From Antedon mediterranea (lineage: Eukaryota; Echinodermata; Crinoidea; Comatulida; Antedonidae): a stretch of DNA of 64,000 nt. Each line of letters begins with the position of its first letter. The stretch's first letter is position 1. The stretch lies in NCBI RefSeq assembly GCF_964355755.1, contig NC_092679.1, positions 23,188,432 to 23,252,431 of the forward strand. The letters are read 5' to 3'. The position numbers and the translations under genes are program-made. The notes below the pieces were generated by a model. That model was not told where the DNA came from, searched no databases, and saw only the letters and a list, made by a program, of their open reading frames with translations. Shown one piece after another: positions 24,501-52,300 of this stretch.

Positions 24501-27500
24501 AGGCAGATTCTATGATACAGTATCACATATTATGTAGAAATACAACAATGAGAATCAAATAAACTTTTAGGATATTGTTATGGTATTTAAAATAAGCAAG
24601 CATAGTATTTTTATCAAAATATTAAAAAAATAAATAAAATCAAAATATTGATATTTGTTTCATAACAGAGAGTTCATAGCACTGTTGATAAAATATAATT
24701 TTTATTTCCTGATATAAAAGATTAAATTATATTTCCTGAAAAATTGTCCAGAGTATAGAAATTAATAAACAGACAGATATTAAATTGAAGATATCCGCAT
24801 AATAATAAAATCTTTTAAGATTAAAATTTGCATGTATAACATATATGTGTATTTTATTTCACTTTATACAGGTGTAATTTGTATTTCTTAGAACATTTTG
24901 TTTTAAATTATTCTCAATTTGTAAATAAGTGATCAAAAGTATAGAGAGAATCAATATTAGTCTGTCACATAACTAAAACATATTTATTTATACCTAAAAT
25001 ACTTTTATTTGTTTATTTAAAATTTATATGATCCACACTCAGCATAGAAAGCTTAAATTGAAATAGGACTTCTGAAAGGTAATGTTTCAAAGTGAAATAA
25101 TTATTGTATTAGAAAGATCTAAAGATTTTAATATATTTTTGTTGAATCATACCACAATAATATGTCATAATGTTTACCACCACTTAAAATACCAGACAGA
25201 TTTTTATCAAATAATTTTTTTTTTTTTTTTTTGAGGGGCCTAACTAAATATTTAGAGATGACATCAAGATTGCACTACATGAGGTAGTACAAATAGGCCC
25301 ACAAAGAAATTTACAATTTATGACATTTTCTTTTTATGGTTAATAAAATAAATCGCATTATATACATAAAATGCAGATAAACCATTTATTTCTATGGAAA
25401 TAATCATTCCGAGTAAAGTCTAAATCAATTTTATCAGTACACTGTACACAAAAATAACGAATCAGAGGTGGTATATATGGCGTGACTGGCACTACCTAAC
25501 CGACATCAAAAGTCACTTGACTGTTTCCAATTGTTCTCATTGTGTCAACCTCTACGTACAAAAGTATTTACGTTTGGATTACCAGTAAAATATTCTGCAA
25601 GAAAACTAAAAGAAGTAAGTTTAGACTGAAATATTAAGCAAAGTATCAAGTATGTGAGTTGAATGTGCGCCTCATCTAGAAAATATTTTCTTAGAGAAGG
25701 AGGTGGGTGGGGTATGAGGCTGGTTAGGACACCATACCAAGAAAATAACAATAATTGTTGTTGTTTTTGCTTTTTTGGCTTCTTTTTCTCGAAGGAGCCC
25801 ATTGGATTTTAGGACTTTTATGGGTTATCCATTTAATTTATTAAGTTTTCACCTTTGTCTCCTTTATACATTCATTGTATTTTATCTGTAATTGATACTG
25901 AAATAAATCAAATTAAATCAATACTGACCAGCAAGGTAAATTATTTTGTAATTTTACAGATCAATTCAAAATGGCTACTAGTAGGTTAACTACATTTCTA
26001 GAAGATATTGATGAGAAGGTTCTAGAGTGCCAAATATGCTATAATCGACTCAACGAACCCAGAACCTTAACATGTCTTCACAGCTTCTGTCTGAGTTGTC
26101 TTGACAACTGGTTGAAGAAAACTAACAACAAACTAACCTGTCCAACATGCTCCCAATGTTATCAGATTCCAGAGGGTGGTCTAAAGAAACTACCCCCTAC
26201 ACCTTCCTCAATAACTTATTAGAAACAATTGGACAATTGACAACTACAGATAAGACCAAATGTATTTGTGGAAAAAAAGGTCAATCTAAAACCTACTGTC
26301 AGGATTGCAGAGAGTATTTGTGCCACAGTTGTAGTGATCCTCATAAGAACATACCATCGTGCAAAAATCACAAGTTGCATTCAGTGGATGATATTCAATC
26401 TATGAGTGTAAGTGAGATCAATGACATGCACCCGCCTCTGTGTTCCGTCCACAATGAACCTCTAACTGTGTATTGCACCATTTGCAATGTTGCCATTTGC
26501 ATACACTGTTCAATCATGGATCACAAGGAATGGAAGGGAAAGGAAAAACATGTGACAATCAGCATAACAGATGCGTTTAAAACATTTAAACAAACATCAA
26601 CGGAATTAGAAAAAGAGGCAAAACAATGTACAGATAAATTAAATGATGATCTTGAAGTAATGAATGACCATGTCAAGACACTGGGTGAAAAAAGAGAAAA
26701 GAGTTTAAGAGGAATTGAAAATTATGTTGATGAATTGGTAACAAGAGTAAAAGACAGTGGAGATAAATTAAAACGTGAAGCAGAGGCAATGTACAAAATC
26801 AAGAGGAAATTAACTGATGCCGACATAGAGGATGTGACGATGACAGTATCACATATAAATACAAACATCAAGTTGCTACAACACTTAAGAAAAGGTAATG
26901 AAGCAACGGCCATATCGGGGAATGACGTCATTAAAGCACTGGATGATAGGATCAAGGCAGTGCCTAAAAAACAATCTGATGGTAATGCACAGATTCACTT
27001 TGTTAAACAACAAATTGCTTCATTGGACAAGGACATTGGAAAGGTTACAGAATTAAGGCCAGCAGCAGACTATTTAGAACTAATAGAAGCTGAGAGCATC
27101 ACGACAGCTCAAACAATTGATGTCAAAATAATTAAAACTGACAAATGTAAAATAAAAGCAAGTAACATAAAAGCTACATTAACACAAACAACAGGAGAAA
27201 CTATCATTACTCAAGTAAAAGATGGAAATGGTGAATATACTGTTAAAGGACTATGCAGTGCAAGTGAAGGAATTTGCAAGGTCGATGTTAGAGTTGATGG
27301 AGAACACATTAACAAGTCACCAATGACTATCAAAGTGGAGAAAGAAGGACTATTAAAAACTATAAACATAGATAATCTTACTGAAGTTCATGGTGTAGTT
27401 AAATATGATGATGATTGTTTGTTTGTTTGTTTTATCTTTATACTGGGTAACCTCTTCAGTCAAAGACTGATCTCCCAGAGGGCCCAGTTGGTGATCAGTG

Positions 27501-30500
27501 GCTGTGATGTACTAATACACCGGGGTAACCCCCTACTCATCTCGAAAGATGTACTAGGTTCTTTAAAGTGCACACGAGCAAGTTGTGTACACTGGACCTA
27601 CGGTTTATAGTCCTTATCCGAGAAGACTCGTTCTACCACCAGAACCATGGAGTGAGTGAGCCTCGAACCCCTGCCGATGTTATGGCTACGTGATTACGGT
27701 TCCACTGTCTTAACCGCTCAGCCACTCACTCACTCATTGCTTGCTTGTTTCATGTCTAGACAATGTTATTCGCAAATACAAGCAATCAGGTGAAAACATC
27801 AGTGAGATTACACTATCAGAAGGTGTGCAAGTAAACAGAATGTACACAATGAACAATGGCAATATAGCGTTCAGTGATTGGGGTAATAAATGCATCACAG
27901 TATGCACTATTAATGGTGAGGTGGTTAAATCATTTGGTAAGGGAGTGTTACGTCCACCTTGGGGTATCCATGTGGATGAAGCATCACGTGTCATGTATGT
28001 AGCTAATGATGAGAATGTAGCCATGCTTAACATTGAAAGTGGTAGTCTCATTAAAAAAATAGCCCTATGGAATTGTACCGGTTTGAAACACACCAATATC
28101 ATGGATGTCACCCTTACAAGACAAGGACAAATTCTTGTACTGCATTCTACTAAAAGCTGCTTAAAACTATTTGATACAAAGAGAAAGTATATTAAAGACC
28201 TTGTCAATGAGGGTGATGAAGATGGTAAGGTGACGTACCCAAAAGGAGTAGCAGTTGATAAAAATGATAATATCATAATATCAAGTTACCACAAACTACA
28301 GCTATTTAGTAATAGCGGAAAGTTTATTAAAAGGATCGATAAAGAAGAAGATGGAATCAACCAACCTCATGTTTTATCTATCTTATCACACCATCCACGT
28401 AGACTTGCAGTGGCAAATAATGGTGATAAAACTGTAAAAATATTTAATTATTAAATAAGCTAGTGCTCAAGATATAAGACAATATAATGCTATTAGTTTT
28501 CATCGATGTTTATAGAAATTGTAAAATATTATAATAATTTACATAAGGTTAAAACAACTATTTCTTCCATTGTACAGCATTTTTTATTTTAATTATTTAC
28601 TGGAGTAGAAATTATTAATTCCATACTACTTTATTTATTTATATTTTGATATCAATCTTAAAAATATTTCTCGAAAAGAAATGATTTGTAGAGAGGCTCC
28701 AACTTGAGGGCATAGTTCACGGACTATACTATTTGTGAACAGGGGTGTTCAATGAAAAAAAGTTATATCTCGCTCTTTGAGTATAGGCATAAAATAAACT
28801 ATCAAATACATACTATTTTAATTCTATATAACTTATAAATCTTGTAAAAAATGATTGCTATTATATGTTTACTGCTTTACTGGCTTAAGATTACAAATGT
28901 TTTGTTTTTAACATATATGGTCATACATTTTAATAAATCTACTGTTTACTGTGATATTTAAAGTTCACTTATTTAATTCATTGTTACGCTCATAATCAAC
29001 CATATTTGTGGTGCTGCACTACTGTAGTACAGTTTTAAAAGTGTATAAAAAATTATGTGCATGCGCACACATATCATTTTTTTCCCAAACTATCATGACA
29101 TGATTTGTAAACCATTTGTTTGGTCAGTTTTGAAATCGTTAAAATCTGCAATCGAGTTCAACTTCAACGATTGCACATTTTAAAGATTTTTAGCGTTTAT
29201 TTTTACCCCTTTTCCTGTAAAATAATTGAATCCGGTCAATTTAACGCAACTCAACGTCGACTGGAAAACAGGCTTAACATTTGCAGCAAGATCATCAAAC
29301 AATTCACTTTGTGTATTAATTATTAAGATTCTTTCTAAAGCAATGCTATCACATCCTGCTAACATGTACAATATCATTTCAACAAGGTTGTCATATTAGA
29401 CAGAGAATCCAAATGCTTTGAAATGGGTGTGAAAAGACAGTGTACGTTAAATGTGAAGAACCTTCACTGAACAGAGGGGAGGGCTACTGTAAGTCACAAC
29501 TTATCTTGAATCTTCAATTCAGCAATCCCAATCCCAAGATGTTTTGGTAATAGCTCCTTAACATGGGTCACCAATTGCCTCGATTCCATAATTCGGCCAG
29601 ATGATATGACCTGTTCCTATTATTAAGTCCAGTTGACTAAAGTTATTCTTCCAAACTTGATACTACTGGATGAGTAACAATTACCCATAGTACAAAATCA
29701 TTGACTTAGCAATCTTCTAAAGATGTTTTGGGTCACCGCCTATAGTTTGTTGAATGTCATGTTAAAACATGCACATTTATGTTTCAACAATAATACATAA
29801 TGGTTGAATTTGCATATATTAGCATATATTTGTATATATTAGATACAGAACACAACATGTGCTGTATAACAAATTGACAACATTGTTCTTCAAATTATTT
29901 CTAATGTTATCTATAAAGTTGAATACAAACTGTAACATTAACCACAATATGATAAGTGCCAAGAAAGCAGGTGATAATTCAATGCCCACCTGTATTTAAT
30001 TATGCAAAATTATGTTTTTAAAGAACAACATGGAAAGTTTTATATTCTTATAAATAGATTTTTCATTTTGTCTCAAAGAAATAGAAATTCTACAAAAACA
30101 AATCTAAACATGCAGATTCATGTTTCAATAATAATACATGACTGTTTAATTGTTTGCATAATGATTTAATTTGCATAATCTATAACATGCAAATATTATG
30201 TTTTAATTAACAATCCGGAACACATGCAAATTGATAACAGTTCTTTAAATTACACCTAATGTTATCAATAAAGTAGACTATAAACTGTAACATTTTAATT
30301 AACAATGTGAAGAAAGTGCCAAGAAAGCAGGTGATAATTTACAGATCCACCTGTATTTAATTATGCAAATTAAGTTTTGAAGGCACAACATGGAAAGTTT
30401 TAAAGAAAACGGTCAAAATGAGTGAAGAAAAATAAAGTTTAAAAAGGATAACCAAAATATTCTTGAGTACACCTATTGAAGGCCTATACTTACTTAAAAA

Positions 30501-44457: not shown

Positions 44458-45707
44458 GTTTAGTTTATATCTAACAGAAAATAATTCAATTTGTTGTCTA
44501 GAACTAATATTATAGCTATTGTAATATGTCGCATGAAGTTGAGTTAAATGTGTTCTGTGTAAATACTTATTTGGACCTTTTAATCACATTGAGTGTATGG
44601 TACGGGTATGGGTAACCACAACTTGTTACAAGGGGTTCCACGTTGTCGACATAAGCCGCAGCGCTCGCACTCCGGTTCTGTTAGTGTTAGTTAAATTTTA
44701 TTTTGGTCGAGATAAAATTAGAAGAGTAAAAATAATAGTATTAATACATTATTATCACAAAAGTATCATATCAGAGTCAGTATCACCTTTTTAAGTTTTA
44801 AATTTATTAGGCCTACATAAAAAAAAAAATTCTTACATCAAATACCTTAACTCTATCATATGGCCTAGGCTAGTAGTATTACTAGGAAGTAAGGGATGCG
44901 GCCTCTCTTTTATACGCTAGGCTACTAACTAGGCCTACTATTACTACTACAGTAGTAGTACTAGAGTAACTAGCCTAGCCGAGAAGGGCGCCGAGCGAGT
45001 GCCGCCGCTGTCTGAATGGGCAGCCTATTTAGGATATAGCCAGCAGCAGGCCTAGCCTACTACTAGTAGGCCTAGGCCTAGTAGTTATACGTTAGGTAGG
45101 TTTCCTACTAAATAAAATTCGTTTATATTCTTAAATTGCACAGATAATGCTAGTCCTAGAATATAATACAAACGTTTGTCTGATAACACAGTAAAACCAA
45201 CCCTTTTTAAGCCATAACAACACACAACAAACCACCTGTTTTCAATTTTGTGTTTTAAAAGAAAACGCCCTCACTTAAAACTAATTACAAAAAACTTAGT
45301 AGCCAATCAAATTGTCGTATTTATTTTTGTATAGCACACCAAAAAACTGACTTTTGTTTAATTCATTTAAAAAACATATTAAAACATTGGTATTGCACAA
45401 AGTTATAGTTGCTGTGTTCACGCAAAATACTTATAATACTAATTCATTACACTTTTCATCCAATTCCGCCAACCAAAATCTCACAGCAACGCGCTGCATC
45501 CACAGATCCTCCTCGCATCTAGGCCTATATTTCATTTCTTCTTTCGTTATTCTTACCTGTGTTCGATTTCCTTTCTATATTATTTAATAAAAAAATGTAA
45601 TTGCTATGTACTTTGTTGACTCCAAACTAACTCTTATGGAATAACGTTCACTTCGATTTTCTCACTAATCCCACCCTCAACAAATTCTAATCAATGTTTA
45701 GAAGTAA

Positions 45708-46201
45708 CTTACATAGGCCTACCATACAGGTCGTCATTGTGAGGTATTCTACTCACCTCCCTCATCGGAGCCAATTTTCTTTTGCATACTTAAATATATT
45801 TATTCTATTCTTAATTTCATAATTACCCTTCTAGAAATACAAGGGTTGAGAAAAATTGAGTTAGAACTAAATAGTTGTTCCTCTGCACGGAAATCTTTAG
45901 TAAAAGGCGAAAGATTTATGCGTGATGCAGAGAAACTAGAGTAACAACAATTACGTCACTTACAGTATATGTATGTCATTCCATATCGCAATAGATGGGT
46001 GTTGGTTATTCGTTTAATATAAATAATAAATATAACAAACTGAAACTGTAAAAGATTTTAAAAGCGTTATAAGATAAACTAACTGTAGCATTACAAAAAT
46101 GGTTAAACTTACTATTCATTTATACAAATGAAAATTGACTCCGATGAGGGAGGTGAGTAGAATACCTTACAATGACGACCTGTATGGTAGGCCTATGTAA
46201 G
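45708..46201. repeat. 79-bp inverted repeat enclosing U5 copy 1
   Basis: Left arm 45708-45786 (begins CTTACATAGGCCTACC) is the reverse complement of right arm 46123-46201 with only a few mismatches, mostly at the inner end. The left arm is in the position of the 3' flank of U5 copy 1. No clear target-site duplication is seen outside the arms. Confidence 0.85.
45822..45944 (-). ncRNA. RNU5: U5 spliceosomal snRNA, copy 1 (variant)
   Basis: On the minus strand this 123-nt segment matches U5 in order: 5' ACTCTAGTTTCTCTGCATCA, the loop I region CGCCTTTTACTAAAGATTTC that contacts exon ends during splicing, GAGGAACAACT, the Sm site AATTTTTCTC, and a 3' hairpin. The lower stem pairs CTCTGCA with TGCAGAG perfectly in this copy, whereas the other copies have a G-U pair. 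The 3' hairpin has a G-G mismatch and the segment before the Sm site differs from the other copies, so it may be a diverged variant or a decaying gene. It lies inside an inverted repeat (45708-45786 and 46123-46201). Confidence 0.88.
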
Positions 46202-46823
46202 AAGAATAATTTTGGTTAAATATTTAAAGTTGAAAACTGTTGAAACAATGCTGCTTATTTGCATACTAAAATTAATTTTTCCAGGTGACAATTTTGTTGC
46301 CATTTCGTAAAATTTAAGACAGAATTTTTTTTAAATTGACAAAAGAATTAAGACTGAATATTTCATAGCCCACATGTATTTTTCTCTCTCTTATTTTTTA
46401 GTATCGATCGCACAGTTTTCTTGAAGTTCTCAAAACTATTTTACGTGTTCGCGTTGCGTGCTTAGATCAAGGGCGTCGCGTAATTACCGCGTGTTGCGTA
46501 AATTCGTTGCTCGTACCAACGAGTTGCCACAGTACCATGCCAACAATAACATTCTATTTTACATTGTGTATTTTGCTTTTGCTGCTAGACAAGTACCTTT
46601 TACAAAATCTCAGGTACTATTTTATAATTATACGAAATTATTTGCAATTATGGGATTGTCTTAAACGAAAAGTAAGGTGCAACCTGACTTTAACGATAAT
46701 CAATCCCACTTATCATCAAAGAAATTACAAGTAAGTAGAAAGGTAAACAGAATTCTTATGATTTTTTGGCGGAGACAAAACAAAGTTGACGTCATGTCAT
46801 TTATTCTACTCTTACTTTCATAA

Positions 46824-46946
46824 ATTACCCTTGTAGAAATACAAGGGTTGAGAAAAATTGAGTTAAAACTCAATAGTTGTTCCTCTACACGGAAATCTTT
46901 AGTAAAAGGCGAAAGATTTATACGTGATGCAGAGAAACTAGAGTAA
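46824..46946 (-). ncRNA. RNU5: U5 spliceosomal snRNA, copy 2
   Basis: 123-nt U5 copy with conserved loop GCCTTTTACT, hairpin TTGAGTTTTAACTCAA, Sm site AATTTTTCTC and a perfectly paired 3' hairpin (CCCTTGTA with TACAAGGG). Just downstream of the RNA 3' end is GAAAGTAAGAGTAGA, which resembles the metazoan snRNA 3' box (AAARNNAGA). The upstream flank (46947-47005) is the same type as that of copy 3. Of the four, this copy and copy 4 look most intact. Confidence 0.92.
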
Positions 46947-47010
46947 AGATCGAGAAACATGTGACAATGGGAATATGTATAATTAAAATTACCTATCGAA
47001 ATAAATTTCA
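46947..47010 (-). promoter_or_regulatory. Candidate snRNA promoter of U5 copy 2; same type at 47699-47755 for copy 3
   Basis: Copies 2 and 3 share ACATGTGACAATGGGAATAT and CCTATCGAAATAAAT directly upstream of the RNA 5' end, unlike the flank of copies 1 and 4. Because the pair arose by tandem duplication, identity here shows less constraint than in the other pair. Confidence 0.42.
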
Positions 47011-47575
47011 AATTGTCTCTGTATATATGTTGAAACAATGCTGCTTATTTGCATATTCGAATTATTTTCCAAGGTGAAAATTAATTGTGTTGCCAGTGTG
47101 TAAAATGTAAGAGTTTTAATACTTGACAAAAGAATTAAGACTGAATATTGCATAGCACACATGTATTTTTCTCTTTCTTTATATTATTTAGTTACTGATC
47201 GCAAAGCTTTCTTGAAATTCTCAACTATTTTACGTTTTCGTGTTGGGTAGTGCGTCCCGTGATTTCCGCGTGTTGCGTACATTCGTTGCTCGTACCAACG
47301 ATTTGCCACAGTTACCATGCCAACAATAACATTCTATAATTATTCTGTGTATTGCTTTTGCTGCTAGACAAGTACTTTTTACAAAAAGTTAAATCGAATT
47401 CTTAAGATTTTCTTGGGGAGATCAAAAAAAGTTACAATTTACTTTGAGTCGTTGATTTACAGCATATTAATGTTAGACCTCTACAATGATTCCAACACGA
47501 TTTTTCCTGAGCTGTATGCAATTAAATCTTGTACATTTAATAAACAATATATTCATTCTATTATTAATTTCATAA

Positions 47576-47698
47576 ATTACCCTTGTATAAATACAGGGGT
47601 TAAGAAAAATTGAGGTAAAACTCAATAGTTGTTCCTCTACACGGAAATCTTTAGTAAAAGGCGAAAGATTTATGCGTGATGCAGAAAAACCAGAGTAA
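47576..47698 (-). ncRNA. RNU5: U5 spliceosomal snRNA, copy 3
   Basis: 123-nt U5 copy, intact loop I and Sm site; 5' end ACTCTGGTTTTTCTGCATCA. The 3' hairpin has one C-A mismatch. It lies in a tandem duplication with copy 2 (offset 752 bp) and shares its upstream sequence (ACATGTGACAATGGGAATAT on the plus strand, then CCTATCGAAATAAAT). Confidence 0.91.
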
Positions 47699-48589
47699 AG
47701 ATAAACATGTGACAATGGGAATATGTATAAAATTACCTATCGAAATAAATAGGTTTCAAATAGAAAAATTGGTGAACCTGTATTGAGGGTTTTAACACTA
47801 CAGCTCTAAAGTATCTTAATATAGGTTAAACACATTATTATAAAAATAGTAACGTAAATATTAACCAAACATTGAGAAAAAAGTACAAAAACCATGACCT
47901 CATTTGCATATTTGAAATAGTTATTGAAAATCGCGTTCGTTGTTACGTAACAGAGCGTTCAATGGAATACAGTACAATATTGTGTTGAAAACAATTGTTT
48001 AAAGACTTTAATTATTGATAATTTGCTATGCCTATGATTTTAATTTAAAATACATCATAATGGGTACTGTGTAGCTTCATAATAACCAAATCAAGTTTAT
48101 TCTACAAATCACCATTAAATATAAATGTAGGCCTATATCTCGTAGGCTGTCTTGACAATAATTAAATAATCATGTTTTATGCTTAAATTAAAAGTGTTCC
48201 AGTCGTTTGTTTTTAGTGAAAATGTTGCATAATAATAGAACAAAAGTTAATTAACGAAGGTGCGAAGTTTCATTGAAATAAAACAATTAGAATACCCTTT
48301 TGCTAAGGCGTAGACTTTAACGCCCTGTATTTTTTGGTATTTGTAATTTCCTGTTACTTAACTTTAAAATCATTTTTCTTTAAACACTGATTGTAACAGC
48401 CAAAACTTTAGACTGAGATATCTCTGGAAGTAGACATTGTATTAAGATATTTTTTCAGCATTTTAAATCTTGCATTATGTAGTTTTAGTATTTGTGAAAA
48501 TCTCAATTTTGAAAACTTCCGAATTATGTCTGATTTTTATTGCATGTTTCATAATATTAAAAAGTAACAGGCCTACATTGCAGGTCCTA

Positions 48590-48690
48590 TCACTTGGTAT
48601 TCTAGTCAAATCAATTCGGCCTTTCCTGAGCTGTATGCAATCTTTTGATATTTATTCTATTTTTAAATTCATAAATTACCCTTGTAATCA
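48590..48690 (-). pseudogene. Truncated U5 3'-flank remnant
   Basis: The sequence GGTATTCTAGTCAAATCA to TTCATAAATTACCCTTGTAA matches the 3' flank of the U5 genes and the first few bases of the U5 3' hairpin, then stops matching. It reads as a duplicated flank that has lost the RNA body. The same flank is intact at 48790-48903 before copy 4. Confidence 0.6.
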
Positions 48691-48903
48691 GTCCCACCTA
48701 AAAGAAATAAATTGCAAGAAGGAAAGTAGAAAGTTACACCGAATTCTTAGGATTTGCTGGCGGAGATCAAAGTTGATGTCATGCCTACAACACAGGTCCT
48801 CATCACGTGGTATTCTAGTCAAATCACCTTTCCCTGGACTCCATGCGAGTAAATCTTTTGTATACTTATTAAAAATATATTTATTCTAATCTTTATTTTA
48901 TAA

Positions 48904-49026
48904 ATTACCCTTATACAAATACAAGGGTTGAGAAAAATTGAGTTAAAACTCAATAGTTGTTCCTCTACACGGAAATCTTTAGTAAAAGGCGAAAGATTTA
49001 TGCGTGATGCAGAGAAACCAGAGTAA
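48904..49026 (-). ncRNA. RNU5: U5 spliceosomal snRNA, copy 4
   Basis: 123-nt U5 copy with 5' ACTCTGGTTTCTCTGCATCA (closest of the four to the vertebrate 5' end), loop GCCTTTTACT, Sm site AATTTTTCTC and a fully pairable 3' hairpin (one G-U). It is transcribed away from ARV1, whose start codon is 360 bp to the right. The upstream flank (49028-49110) shares ACGTCACTTA and TTATTCGTTTAATATAAAT with copy 1. Confidence 0.93.
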
Positions 49027-49027
49027 C

Positions 49028-49115
49028 GAGACATACGTCACTTAGAGTTTATGTATGGAATTCCACATCGCAATATATAGGTTTTGATTATTCGTTTAAT
49101 ATAAATACAGATATA
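49028..49115 (-). promoter_or_regulatory. Candidate snRNA promoter (PSE region) of U5 copy 4; same type at 45946-46035 for copy 1
   Basis: About 60-90 bp upstream of copies 1 and 4 the blocks GCAATA...GGT and TTATTCGTTTAATATAAAT are conserved at equal spacing, where a proximal sequence element is expected. Position and conservation are seen; factor binding is inferred. Confidence 0.5.
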
Positions 49116-49385
49116 AACCAACTAAAACTGTAGAAGATTGTAAATTATCTTTAGGTTAAACCTAATTTAGCATTAGAAAAAGTTTTAACTAATTGTTGTA
49201 TTCAGAATAATGTTAATTGTAGTTAGTTAAATAGTCTAAAGTTAAAAATTGAACAATGTTTAAATGATTTGCATATTATTCAAATTAGTTTTAGTATGTT
49301 GTGTGTGGTGTTTGTTTATTATCGCACGCATCAGTGATTTAGTCGCCATGTGTGACCGAAATCACTGATGCGTATTATTTTAGAG

Positions 49386-52300
49386 ATGGAGAAAACTTTA
49401 CAACAAAAAAGACGTATTAGTAGAGAAAATAATTCATTTGTGTGTATTAATTGTGGTCAAACCAACAATGAACTGTACAGAGAAATCTTGAAAGATGTAA
49501 TCAAGCTTAGTCATTGTGTAAGCAAGATACTTATGTTCGTTATTAAAAGCTAGGCCACAAAGCGAAGGCATGATTGATTATACAGGCAGCAGGGAGGGAG
49601 GCCGCCAGAGTAGTAGTAAATCACTACATAACTACTGGCTGTAGGCCTAGCATAATGTAGACCTGAAATAAGCCAGACCTAGCTTAGCATTTCGTTTATA
49701 TTTAATCTTGATGTGTTTTTAGCAGTTTGTCTTTCTCAGACCTATAATATATAGATTAGAATAGTAGCTATATCACTCTAGCTATATAGGTGTTTTACTG
49801 TTCTGTAACTGTATGTATGTTTGTTGGCCTCTATCAACCCAGCTTAAATTTCGTCAAAGCTTAATTATAATAAATAAATGTATTCTATTTGCAGGAATCT
49901 TGTTCTAAAGTTGTTGATAAATATGTAGAGTTTGATCCTGTTATCATCCTGCTTGATGCATTGTTATTTAGAGAGGAGGCATATTGCCACATCATATACA
50001 ATGCTAGAGTAAAGGTAGGGCAGAGTTTGGGTTGGTACAATCATTCATCTTTTCTATTATTACGATATTATTTGTTTTCACTAATAATAATATCCTGGAT
50101 TTATAAAGCGCCTAATGTTACAAGCAATGTGATTGTGGATTCTGTCATCCAGGAGAAAACTTGGAAAACCAAGAGCACAATGCTTTTAGGCCAGGTGACA
50201 ATACAGGAGTCTCCAACCGATATGGCAATGTTGACATATGATTGGAAGGAGGCACTTAAATGTTTATTACAAACTAATTATTTTCAATTTTCTAGTTCCA
50301 ATGGAAACTGTGTGTGGTGTACCTACTATGTGATGCTTATATGAAGTGGGCGCATTTGCAAAATGACGAAACAAACGGTTCAAAACGGTTTCTACAGTTT
50401 GCATTACGCTGGGATTTCTATGCAATGTTTCTGATTGCAGCTCTTGGTAAAATTTACTTACTTATTTTATAATAAGTTTGACATTTAATGGTTTATTGTT
50501 TTTCTGATACATGTTAATTTTTTATTTGACTTTGATATAAGCAATATGTATAAAGGGTTAGTTTCAAACTGTTACAACATAAAAACAGGAAAGGGAAGGG
50601 AGTGGGGGTCAACAAGGAATGGGGTCAACAAGGAATGGGGTCAACAAGGAATGGGGTCATCCATAGAAAACATTAAACTCCTTTTCTTTCTATTTTCAAA
50701 AGTGGGGACAAGATCTGGCGCCCTCTAAATTTGAATACGAACAGCCCTCTACAGCACACAGACCTTCACCTTCCGTAAAGTTTGCAATTGGACAGGAAAG
50801 TCAACTAATGACTAAACAATGGTGATGTCATGACCTAACCCATTTATGCGTGACCTTGTTGACATTATGTTTTGACCTTAATCAACATCTGATGTTTGTC
50901 AACAAATTTTATTTATGCTAGAAATCTCATTGGTGCAATGTCGCAACAGTCACTTATGAATCAGAATTATTATAATATACAAAAGTCATGTTTTTCTGTT
51001 TAATGCCTTTCATACTATTTTAATAGCTTTAACCTTTCTGATACAGAAATTAATATGGTTAACATGCAAATAAATACAATGTCTTCTTTTAAAATGTTAA
51101 AAAGCCCCCATACAGCTGTTCAACACTCAAACAAACACCTCCTTCAACCTCCTGAATTCCATGTCATAACACCACAATTGGCAAATCAACATTTCTCACC
51201 AAACTTGTTAATGGCTTGATGTAGCCTAGTTCACTTAAAATATAGAAACTTGATTTCCTTTGACAGTTTAAGTGGATCAATTCATAGAATTAGATCAACC
51301 AATCAGCATAGTTAGTAAAAGTTCTTGCAAACAATCTTATTGGCTCAGCTTCTCATTAGCATAAATAGTTCATGATCTATGTGTTCTGTTTCTCATTATC
51401 ATGCTAAACATACTATGATGATAGATCATGATAGTTAAGTCACGATATTATATATGAACGCGTCTATGACAGTCTTTTTGGTATGGTATGCGTGAAAGTT
51501 CAAAACACTGCCTTCAGGTCTAATGAGGTAATGACTCTTTTCCTGATTCTTTTCCCCCACTAGTTATCTTTTTCTTCGTAAACAGATCAAAGTTTTAAAA
51601 ATGTGATGCACCCTCACATTGTATAAACCCCATGGTCTACTACTCCAAGGATAACATGTTCCCCCGGGGTCAGTTGTCCTCAATATATTTCCTTTTCGAT
51701 TACTATTGAAGGTACATGGTCACTTTTGCAAAAAAAACTTTGTCTAAACTTTCATTGATTGACATAGCATGTACAATGATCATTATTGGATAAAACTATT
51801 TGATTGATCTACACAATAAAAATTCATTCAATATAAAGTTATATAAAACAATTACTTTTTTTTATAGAGTTGATGGTGTTTTTAATTTGTGTAATGTTAT
51901 CCGTTAGCTTTTTGTTTTGGAGAAGAAATGAACAAATGGAAAAGAAAGAGTAAGTGAAAATTATTTTAAAATAAATTCGGTTTAGCCTTTCAACTGAGTT
52001 GTGGATTATTTGTACCAAATAAAAAATACATTTTATGATGTGACTGACATACTGTACAGGGTTGAACCCAGTTTTTCTAGCAGTATTTGTTTGAACCTCT
52101 CTGCAAGTTTTGACAAGAATATCTAACTCAAAACATATGATCTACAGTCAGTTTTATAAATTATAAATTGTTACAAGAGAACAAATTCAAAACATATGAC
52201 CTGTTTCCAGGGTTATTATAAAATGCATTCTCTAAATTCTGAATTAATACAAGAAAATTAACTCAAAACACATGATCTATTTCCAGTTTTTCCACAGTAT

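Follow-up and report, generated by a model that had tools for sequence, protein, structure and literature searches.

The window, a 64,000-nucleotide stretch of DNA (C10:23188432-23252431 in a 354-Mb genome of 18 sequences), carries four full-length genes for the U5 snRNA, a core RNA of the spliceosome, all on the minus strand. These are very probably ordinary U5 genes of the Pol II type, which form a satellite of the C2-type tandem arrays and evolve by birth and death; the third and fourth copies are the likely producers of RNA. The copies are numbered c1–c4 by coordinate; being on the minus strand, they would be transcribed toward lower coordinates, and c4 is the copy adjoining the ARV1 gene. 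In a search of the whole window with the Rfam U5 model (RF00020, gathering score 40 bits), the four matches scored 91.7–99.7 bits, with E-values of 1e-14 to 1.6e-16, and all spanned the full model (positions 1–117). These scores rule out chance matches as the source of the four genes and bear out the initial annotation, which had read four U5 snRNAs on one strand and had proposed this covariance check. The genes are of a known kind, in an ordinary multi-copy arrangement, and the cluster leaves the knowledge of U5 itself unchanged.

No further RNA family reached the gathering level in the window. A permissive Rfam search near the cluster returned only weak, sub-threshold tRNA-like and bacterial sRNA matches; the bacterial sRNA match is surely due to chance. 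The located features are given in Table 1. A truncated fifth copy and the promoter elements, as well as larger U5 arrays elsewhere in the genome, were absent from the initial annotation.

Table 1. Features of the U5 cluster and its surroundings, in coordinates of the window
Feature	Position	Strand	Basis
Block paralogous to C2 U5 arrays	45651..49292 (left bound rounded to 50-nt bin)	-	blastn
Inverted-repeat arm 1, c1 downstream flank	45708..45796	.	I1, 89 nt, 92% complementary
3′-box-like element of c1 (GAATAGAATAAAT)	45796..45823	-	repeat family D3; alignment
U5 snRNA copy 1 (c1), A-type promoter	45824..45944	-	RF00020, 91.7 bits
PSE of c1, start -60	45981..46004	-	PWM 15.8; exact core
Inverted-repeat arm 2, upstream of c1 PSE, displaces distal element	46113..46201	.	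I1
Octamer ATGCAAAT, -320 of c1, rearranged context	46257..46264	-	exact match
3′-box-like element of c2	46797..46826	-	repeat family D3; alignment
U5 snRNA copy 2 (c2), B-type promoter, damaged	46827..46946	-	RF00020, 98.4 bits
Remaining 3′ half of c2 PSE	46988..47002	-	PWM -0.4, near background; core present
Octamer ATGCAAAT, -108 of c2	47047..47054	-	exact match
3′-box-like element of c3	47549..47577	-	repeat family D3; alignment
U5 snRNA copy 3 (c3), B-type promoter	47578..47698	-	RF00020, 95.4 bits
PSE of c3, start -60	47735..47758	-	PWM 27.0
Octamer ATGCAAAT, -211 of c3	47902..47909	-	exact match
Truncated fifth U5 relic: last U5 bases and 3′ box	48648..48686	-	repeat family D3, 92% to c3
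3′-box-like element of c4	48877..48905	-	repeat family D3; alignment
U5 snRNA copy 4 (c4), A-type promoter	48906..49026	-	RF00020, 99.7 bits; head to head with ARV1
PSE of c4, start -60	49063..49086	-	PWM 22.1
Octamer ATGCAAAT, -248 of c4	49267..49274	-	exact match
First exons of ARV1, divergent from c4	49386..50472	+	PF04161 on three reading frames

RNA bodies of the four copies

Loop I (CGCCUUUUACUAAAG) is present in all four window copies and in 76 of the 79 near full-length copies of the genome. The Sm site is AAUUUUUC in each window copy, and an AAUUUUU-type site is found in 78 of the same 79; loop I and the Sm site of the window copies are identical to those of the array copies. After the Sm site, each of the four can form a 3′ hairpin of nine pairs with at most one mismatch. 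The hairpin is perfect in c2 and contains a G-U wobble in c4, a C·A mismatch in c3 and a G·G in c1. This base-pair and motif check agrees with the first reading of the locus, according to which loop I, the Sm site and the 3′ hairpin are kept in all four copies. On folding, all four sequences beat each of 200 shuffles (z from -3.5 to -6.5).

The copies had also been described as differing in a lower-stem pair, in the segment preceding the Sm site and in the 3′ hairpin, and a pair-by-pair comparison upheld these differences. The stem pair in question, 17–60, is G-C in c1 and three other genome copies, G-U in c2–c4 and A-U in three further genome copies, and so shows covariation. Differences in the segment preceding the Sm site are seen in c1 and c3. 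Two stem positions are unpaired in c1 (C6-U76 in the lowest stem and the hairpin G·G), one pair is broken in c3 (the hairpin C·A) and none in c2 or c4. The window copies are not outliers in this respect, since 30 of the copies across the genome have every pair intact, 25 have one broken and 16 have two. The individual copies can be told apart by the UUUAGUUCUAAC segment and the UAGAAGGG hairpin arm in c1, T25 together with the UACAAGGG arm in c2, T13, the ACCUCAA segment and the CCCCUG hairpin arm in c3, and the GUAUAAGGG arm in c4.

In alignment, the four bodies are 92–97% identical to each other. Pairwise comparisons gave 5–8% divergence in the body and 19–48% in the flanks (Fisher p from 0.004 for c3 to 1e-15). 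So low a divergence of the bodies is consistent with purifying selection on the RNA. Gene conversion confined to the RNA would be a less economical explanation, and conversion with array copies could account for part of the similarity. Because all four bodies are constrained, none looks like a freely decaying pseudogene, and the reading of the copies as simple pseudogenes was rejected.

Directly before the Sm site, 65 of the 79 U5 genes of the genome carry the palindrome GAGUUUNAACUC, which can form a hairpin competing with the lowest stem. Single-strand folds of c2 and c4 favour this hairpin, and the fold of c3 a shorter form of it; the exact palindrome is missing from c1 and c3.

Promoters and 3′ ends

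Proximal sequence elements (PSEs) were scored with a position-weight model trained on the other U5 genes and the U1 and U2 genes of the genome, the window being left out; the background scores had a median of -1.2, a 95th percentile of 5.4 and a 99th percentile of 8.6. A full PSE at -60 was found in c1, c3 and c4, the scores of which are not independent of descent, because the training set consists largely of related U5 promoters. It was not recognised in c2, where, as compared with c3, the 5′ half of the element lacks four bases (CCTA) and the remainder lies 8 nt farther from the RNA start. The PSE core is present at four sites in the window, one for each U5 gene, against 0.25 occurrences expected by chance. 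In the U1 and U2 genes of the same genome, a TGACAC-like start is situated at -60 to -62. Another PSE-like match (28063-28086) falls within a coding exon and was regarded as a chance hit.

In Pol II snRNA genes, an octamer distal element is expected near -220 to -250. The exact ATGCAAAT octamer of c3 and c4 is in the usual place, while that of c1 is displaced outwards and that of c2 inwards (Table 1); no other exact copy occurs between about 41.5 and 51.0 kb. Among the matches listed, other U5 genes with an exact octamer have it at about -197 to -253. The homology between c1 and c4 ends about 160 nt upstream of c1 and is followed by an inverted 89-nt copy of the c1 downstream flank, so the c1 octamer comes from a different stretch. 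A TATA box near -25 would switch an snRNA gene to Pol III; as read by eye only, the upstream sequences have an AT-rich CATACATA stretch near -30 and no canonical TATAAA there. Downstream of each copy lies a conserved 3′-box-like sequence, GAATARAATRAAT, which is AT-rich and fits the vertebrate consensus loosely.

With this layout, expression would follow the standard route: SNAPc would bind the PSE at -60 and an Oct1-like factor the octamer, Pol II would make a short U5 precursor, and the 3′ box would direct cleavage by Integrator. The resulting RNA would enter the U5 snRNP, where loop I would hold the exon ends.

The promoters sort the four copies better than the RNA bodies do. The body of c2 is flawless and its PSE is broken, and c1 has a good PSE but a distal region that was rearranged, and two of its positions are unpaired. 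The sequences suggest that c3 and c4, which have every part in its usual place, are the likely producers, and that c1 and c2, with U5-like RNA behind rearranged or damaged promoters, are probably expressed weakly. The proposal of the initial annotation that the cluster mixes working and decaying copies is plausible; the sorting depends mainly on the promoters, which it had not described.

Origin of the cluster and competing readings

A whole-genome pattern search for stem-loop I, with at most two mismatches, gave 84 sites, 79 of them near full length. It was used for counting because a genome search with Rfam gave 47 U5 copies and missed c1. Most of them belong to large tandem arrays on C2 (25.86 and 25.99–26.05 Mb) and on C3 (25.44–25.464 Mb, with a repeat length that is often near 525 bp); a few further sites are found on C2 (19.09 Mb), C9, C10 and C11. 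The window cluster is not the main U5 locus of the genome and, as one small locus among many, is less special than initially implied.

When the 44.5–50.0 kb region was compared by blastn with the U5 loci of C2, C3, C9, C10 and C11, the long matches to the C2 arrays, covering the spacers, had roughly 74–83% identity. The part of the block from about 48.2 to 48.55 kb is not shared with the other U5 loci, and the neighbouring gene regions within the region compared gave no matches to them. A tree built from U5 and its near flanks places c1 and c4 together (97/96) within the A-type genes of C2, and c2 and c3 close to the B-type genes of C2; the four window copies do not make up a single clade. The cluster therefore carries both C2 promoter types, arranged A-B-B-A, and the divergence among its copies exceeds that among most of the C2 copies. 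Judged by sequence, the block is an old, diverged paralogue of the C2 arrays. The small satellite cluster and the present A/B-type tandem arrays of C2 would go back to a common ancestor; lying outside the homogenised arrays, the cluster would evolve by birth and death.

Alternatively, all four copies could be silent relics of C2-type arrays, their similarity being due only to gene conversion or shared descent. Altered promoters in c1 and c2, the truncated fifth copy and the big arrays, which could supply all U5, point that way. Such a reading is nevertheless unlikely, since the spacers have diverged from C2 by about 20–25% and the bodies and most PSEs by much less, and since in c3 and c4 the spacing of PSE, octamer and 3′ box is still canonical. 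A cluster that supplies a specialised U5 isoform on a developmental schedule of its own, from promoters distinct from those of the arrays, is likewise improbable. The copy-specific bases are largely in the 3′ region, as in the developmentally biased U5 isoforms of fly and mouse (PMC4291461), and the octamer spacing of c1 and c2 differs from that of the arrays, yet loop I and the Sm site are the same as in array copies and both promoter types occur in the arrays too. That the window copies might make a stage- or tissue-specific isoform, with snRNP assembly or splicing changed by its altered 3′ region, seems still harder to credit. The 89-nt inverted arms, 92% complementary, which bracket c1 could suggest a small inverted-repeat element that carries the gene and moves it; this is very improbable, as the arm resembles the downstream flank also in c4 (by eye) and a local inverted duplication suffices.

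In common with animal U5 genes (RF00020), the window copies match the model over its full length and have the invariant loop I, the Sm site and the 3′ hairpin, and c1, c3 and c4 have a PSE at about -60; the exact octamers would correspond to the distal element, and the 3′-box-like sequences to the 3′ box. In human snRNA genes, the octamer ATTTGCAT is part of the DSE, and a PSE and a 3′ box are also present (PMC5493778); the window locus is laid out in the same way, with a lineage-specific PSE that departs from the vertebrate consensus. Variation among the U5 genes of fly and mouse is concentrated in the 3′ part, with a developmental bias in the expression of some (PMC4291461). The window shares with these paralogues several non-identical copies, variation in the 3′ part and a kept 3′ hairpin; the present genome has about 79 near full-length copies, against seven in fly (PMC4291461). 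Human variant U1 genes (PMC5493778) are likewise divergent snRNA copies that keep a recognisable DSE, PSE and 3′ box, and by analogy such copies may be real genes, although those of the window are U5 rather than U1.

Homogenised arrays, small diverged satellites and truncated relics form a natural series of U5 genes within one genome, in which the escape of snRNA genes from concerted evolution can be studied and the importance of individual promoter parts tested.

Decayed U5-like copies, with parts of the RNA missing or unrelated, were seen at C10:13191799, C10:13223636, C10:23614757 and C2:25861127. Among other spliceosomal RNAs, U1 forms a long tandem array on C5 (15.66–15.75 Mb, genes often 1.86 kb apart) and U2 another on C3 (13.66–13.71 Mb, often about 0.78 kb apart), the counts for both being lower bounds. 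Three further U2 genes (on C1, on C3 at 31.3 Mb and on C8) have different upstream sequences. U4 and U6 yielded fewer genes than U1 and U2.

Neighbouring genes

The cluster had been placed between WDR27 and ARV1. The right-hand neighbour is indeed ARV1 on the plus strand (PF04161, best exon E 1.7e-15); inspection by eye puts its start codon at about 49386. The left-hand gene is a minus-strand gene with WD40 repeats, for which the name WDR27 is plausible. The RNA start of c4 and the ARV1 ATG lie head to head, about 360 nt apart (49026–49386), so these two genes may share a promoter region. Elsewhere in the window, at 25917-28454, are exons of a TRIM-like gene with RING-like, B-box and filamin-repeat sequences.
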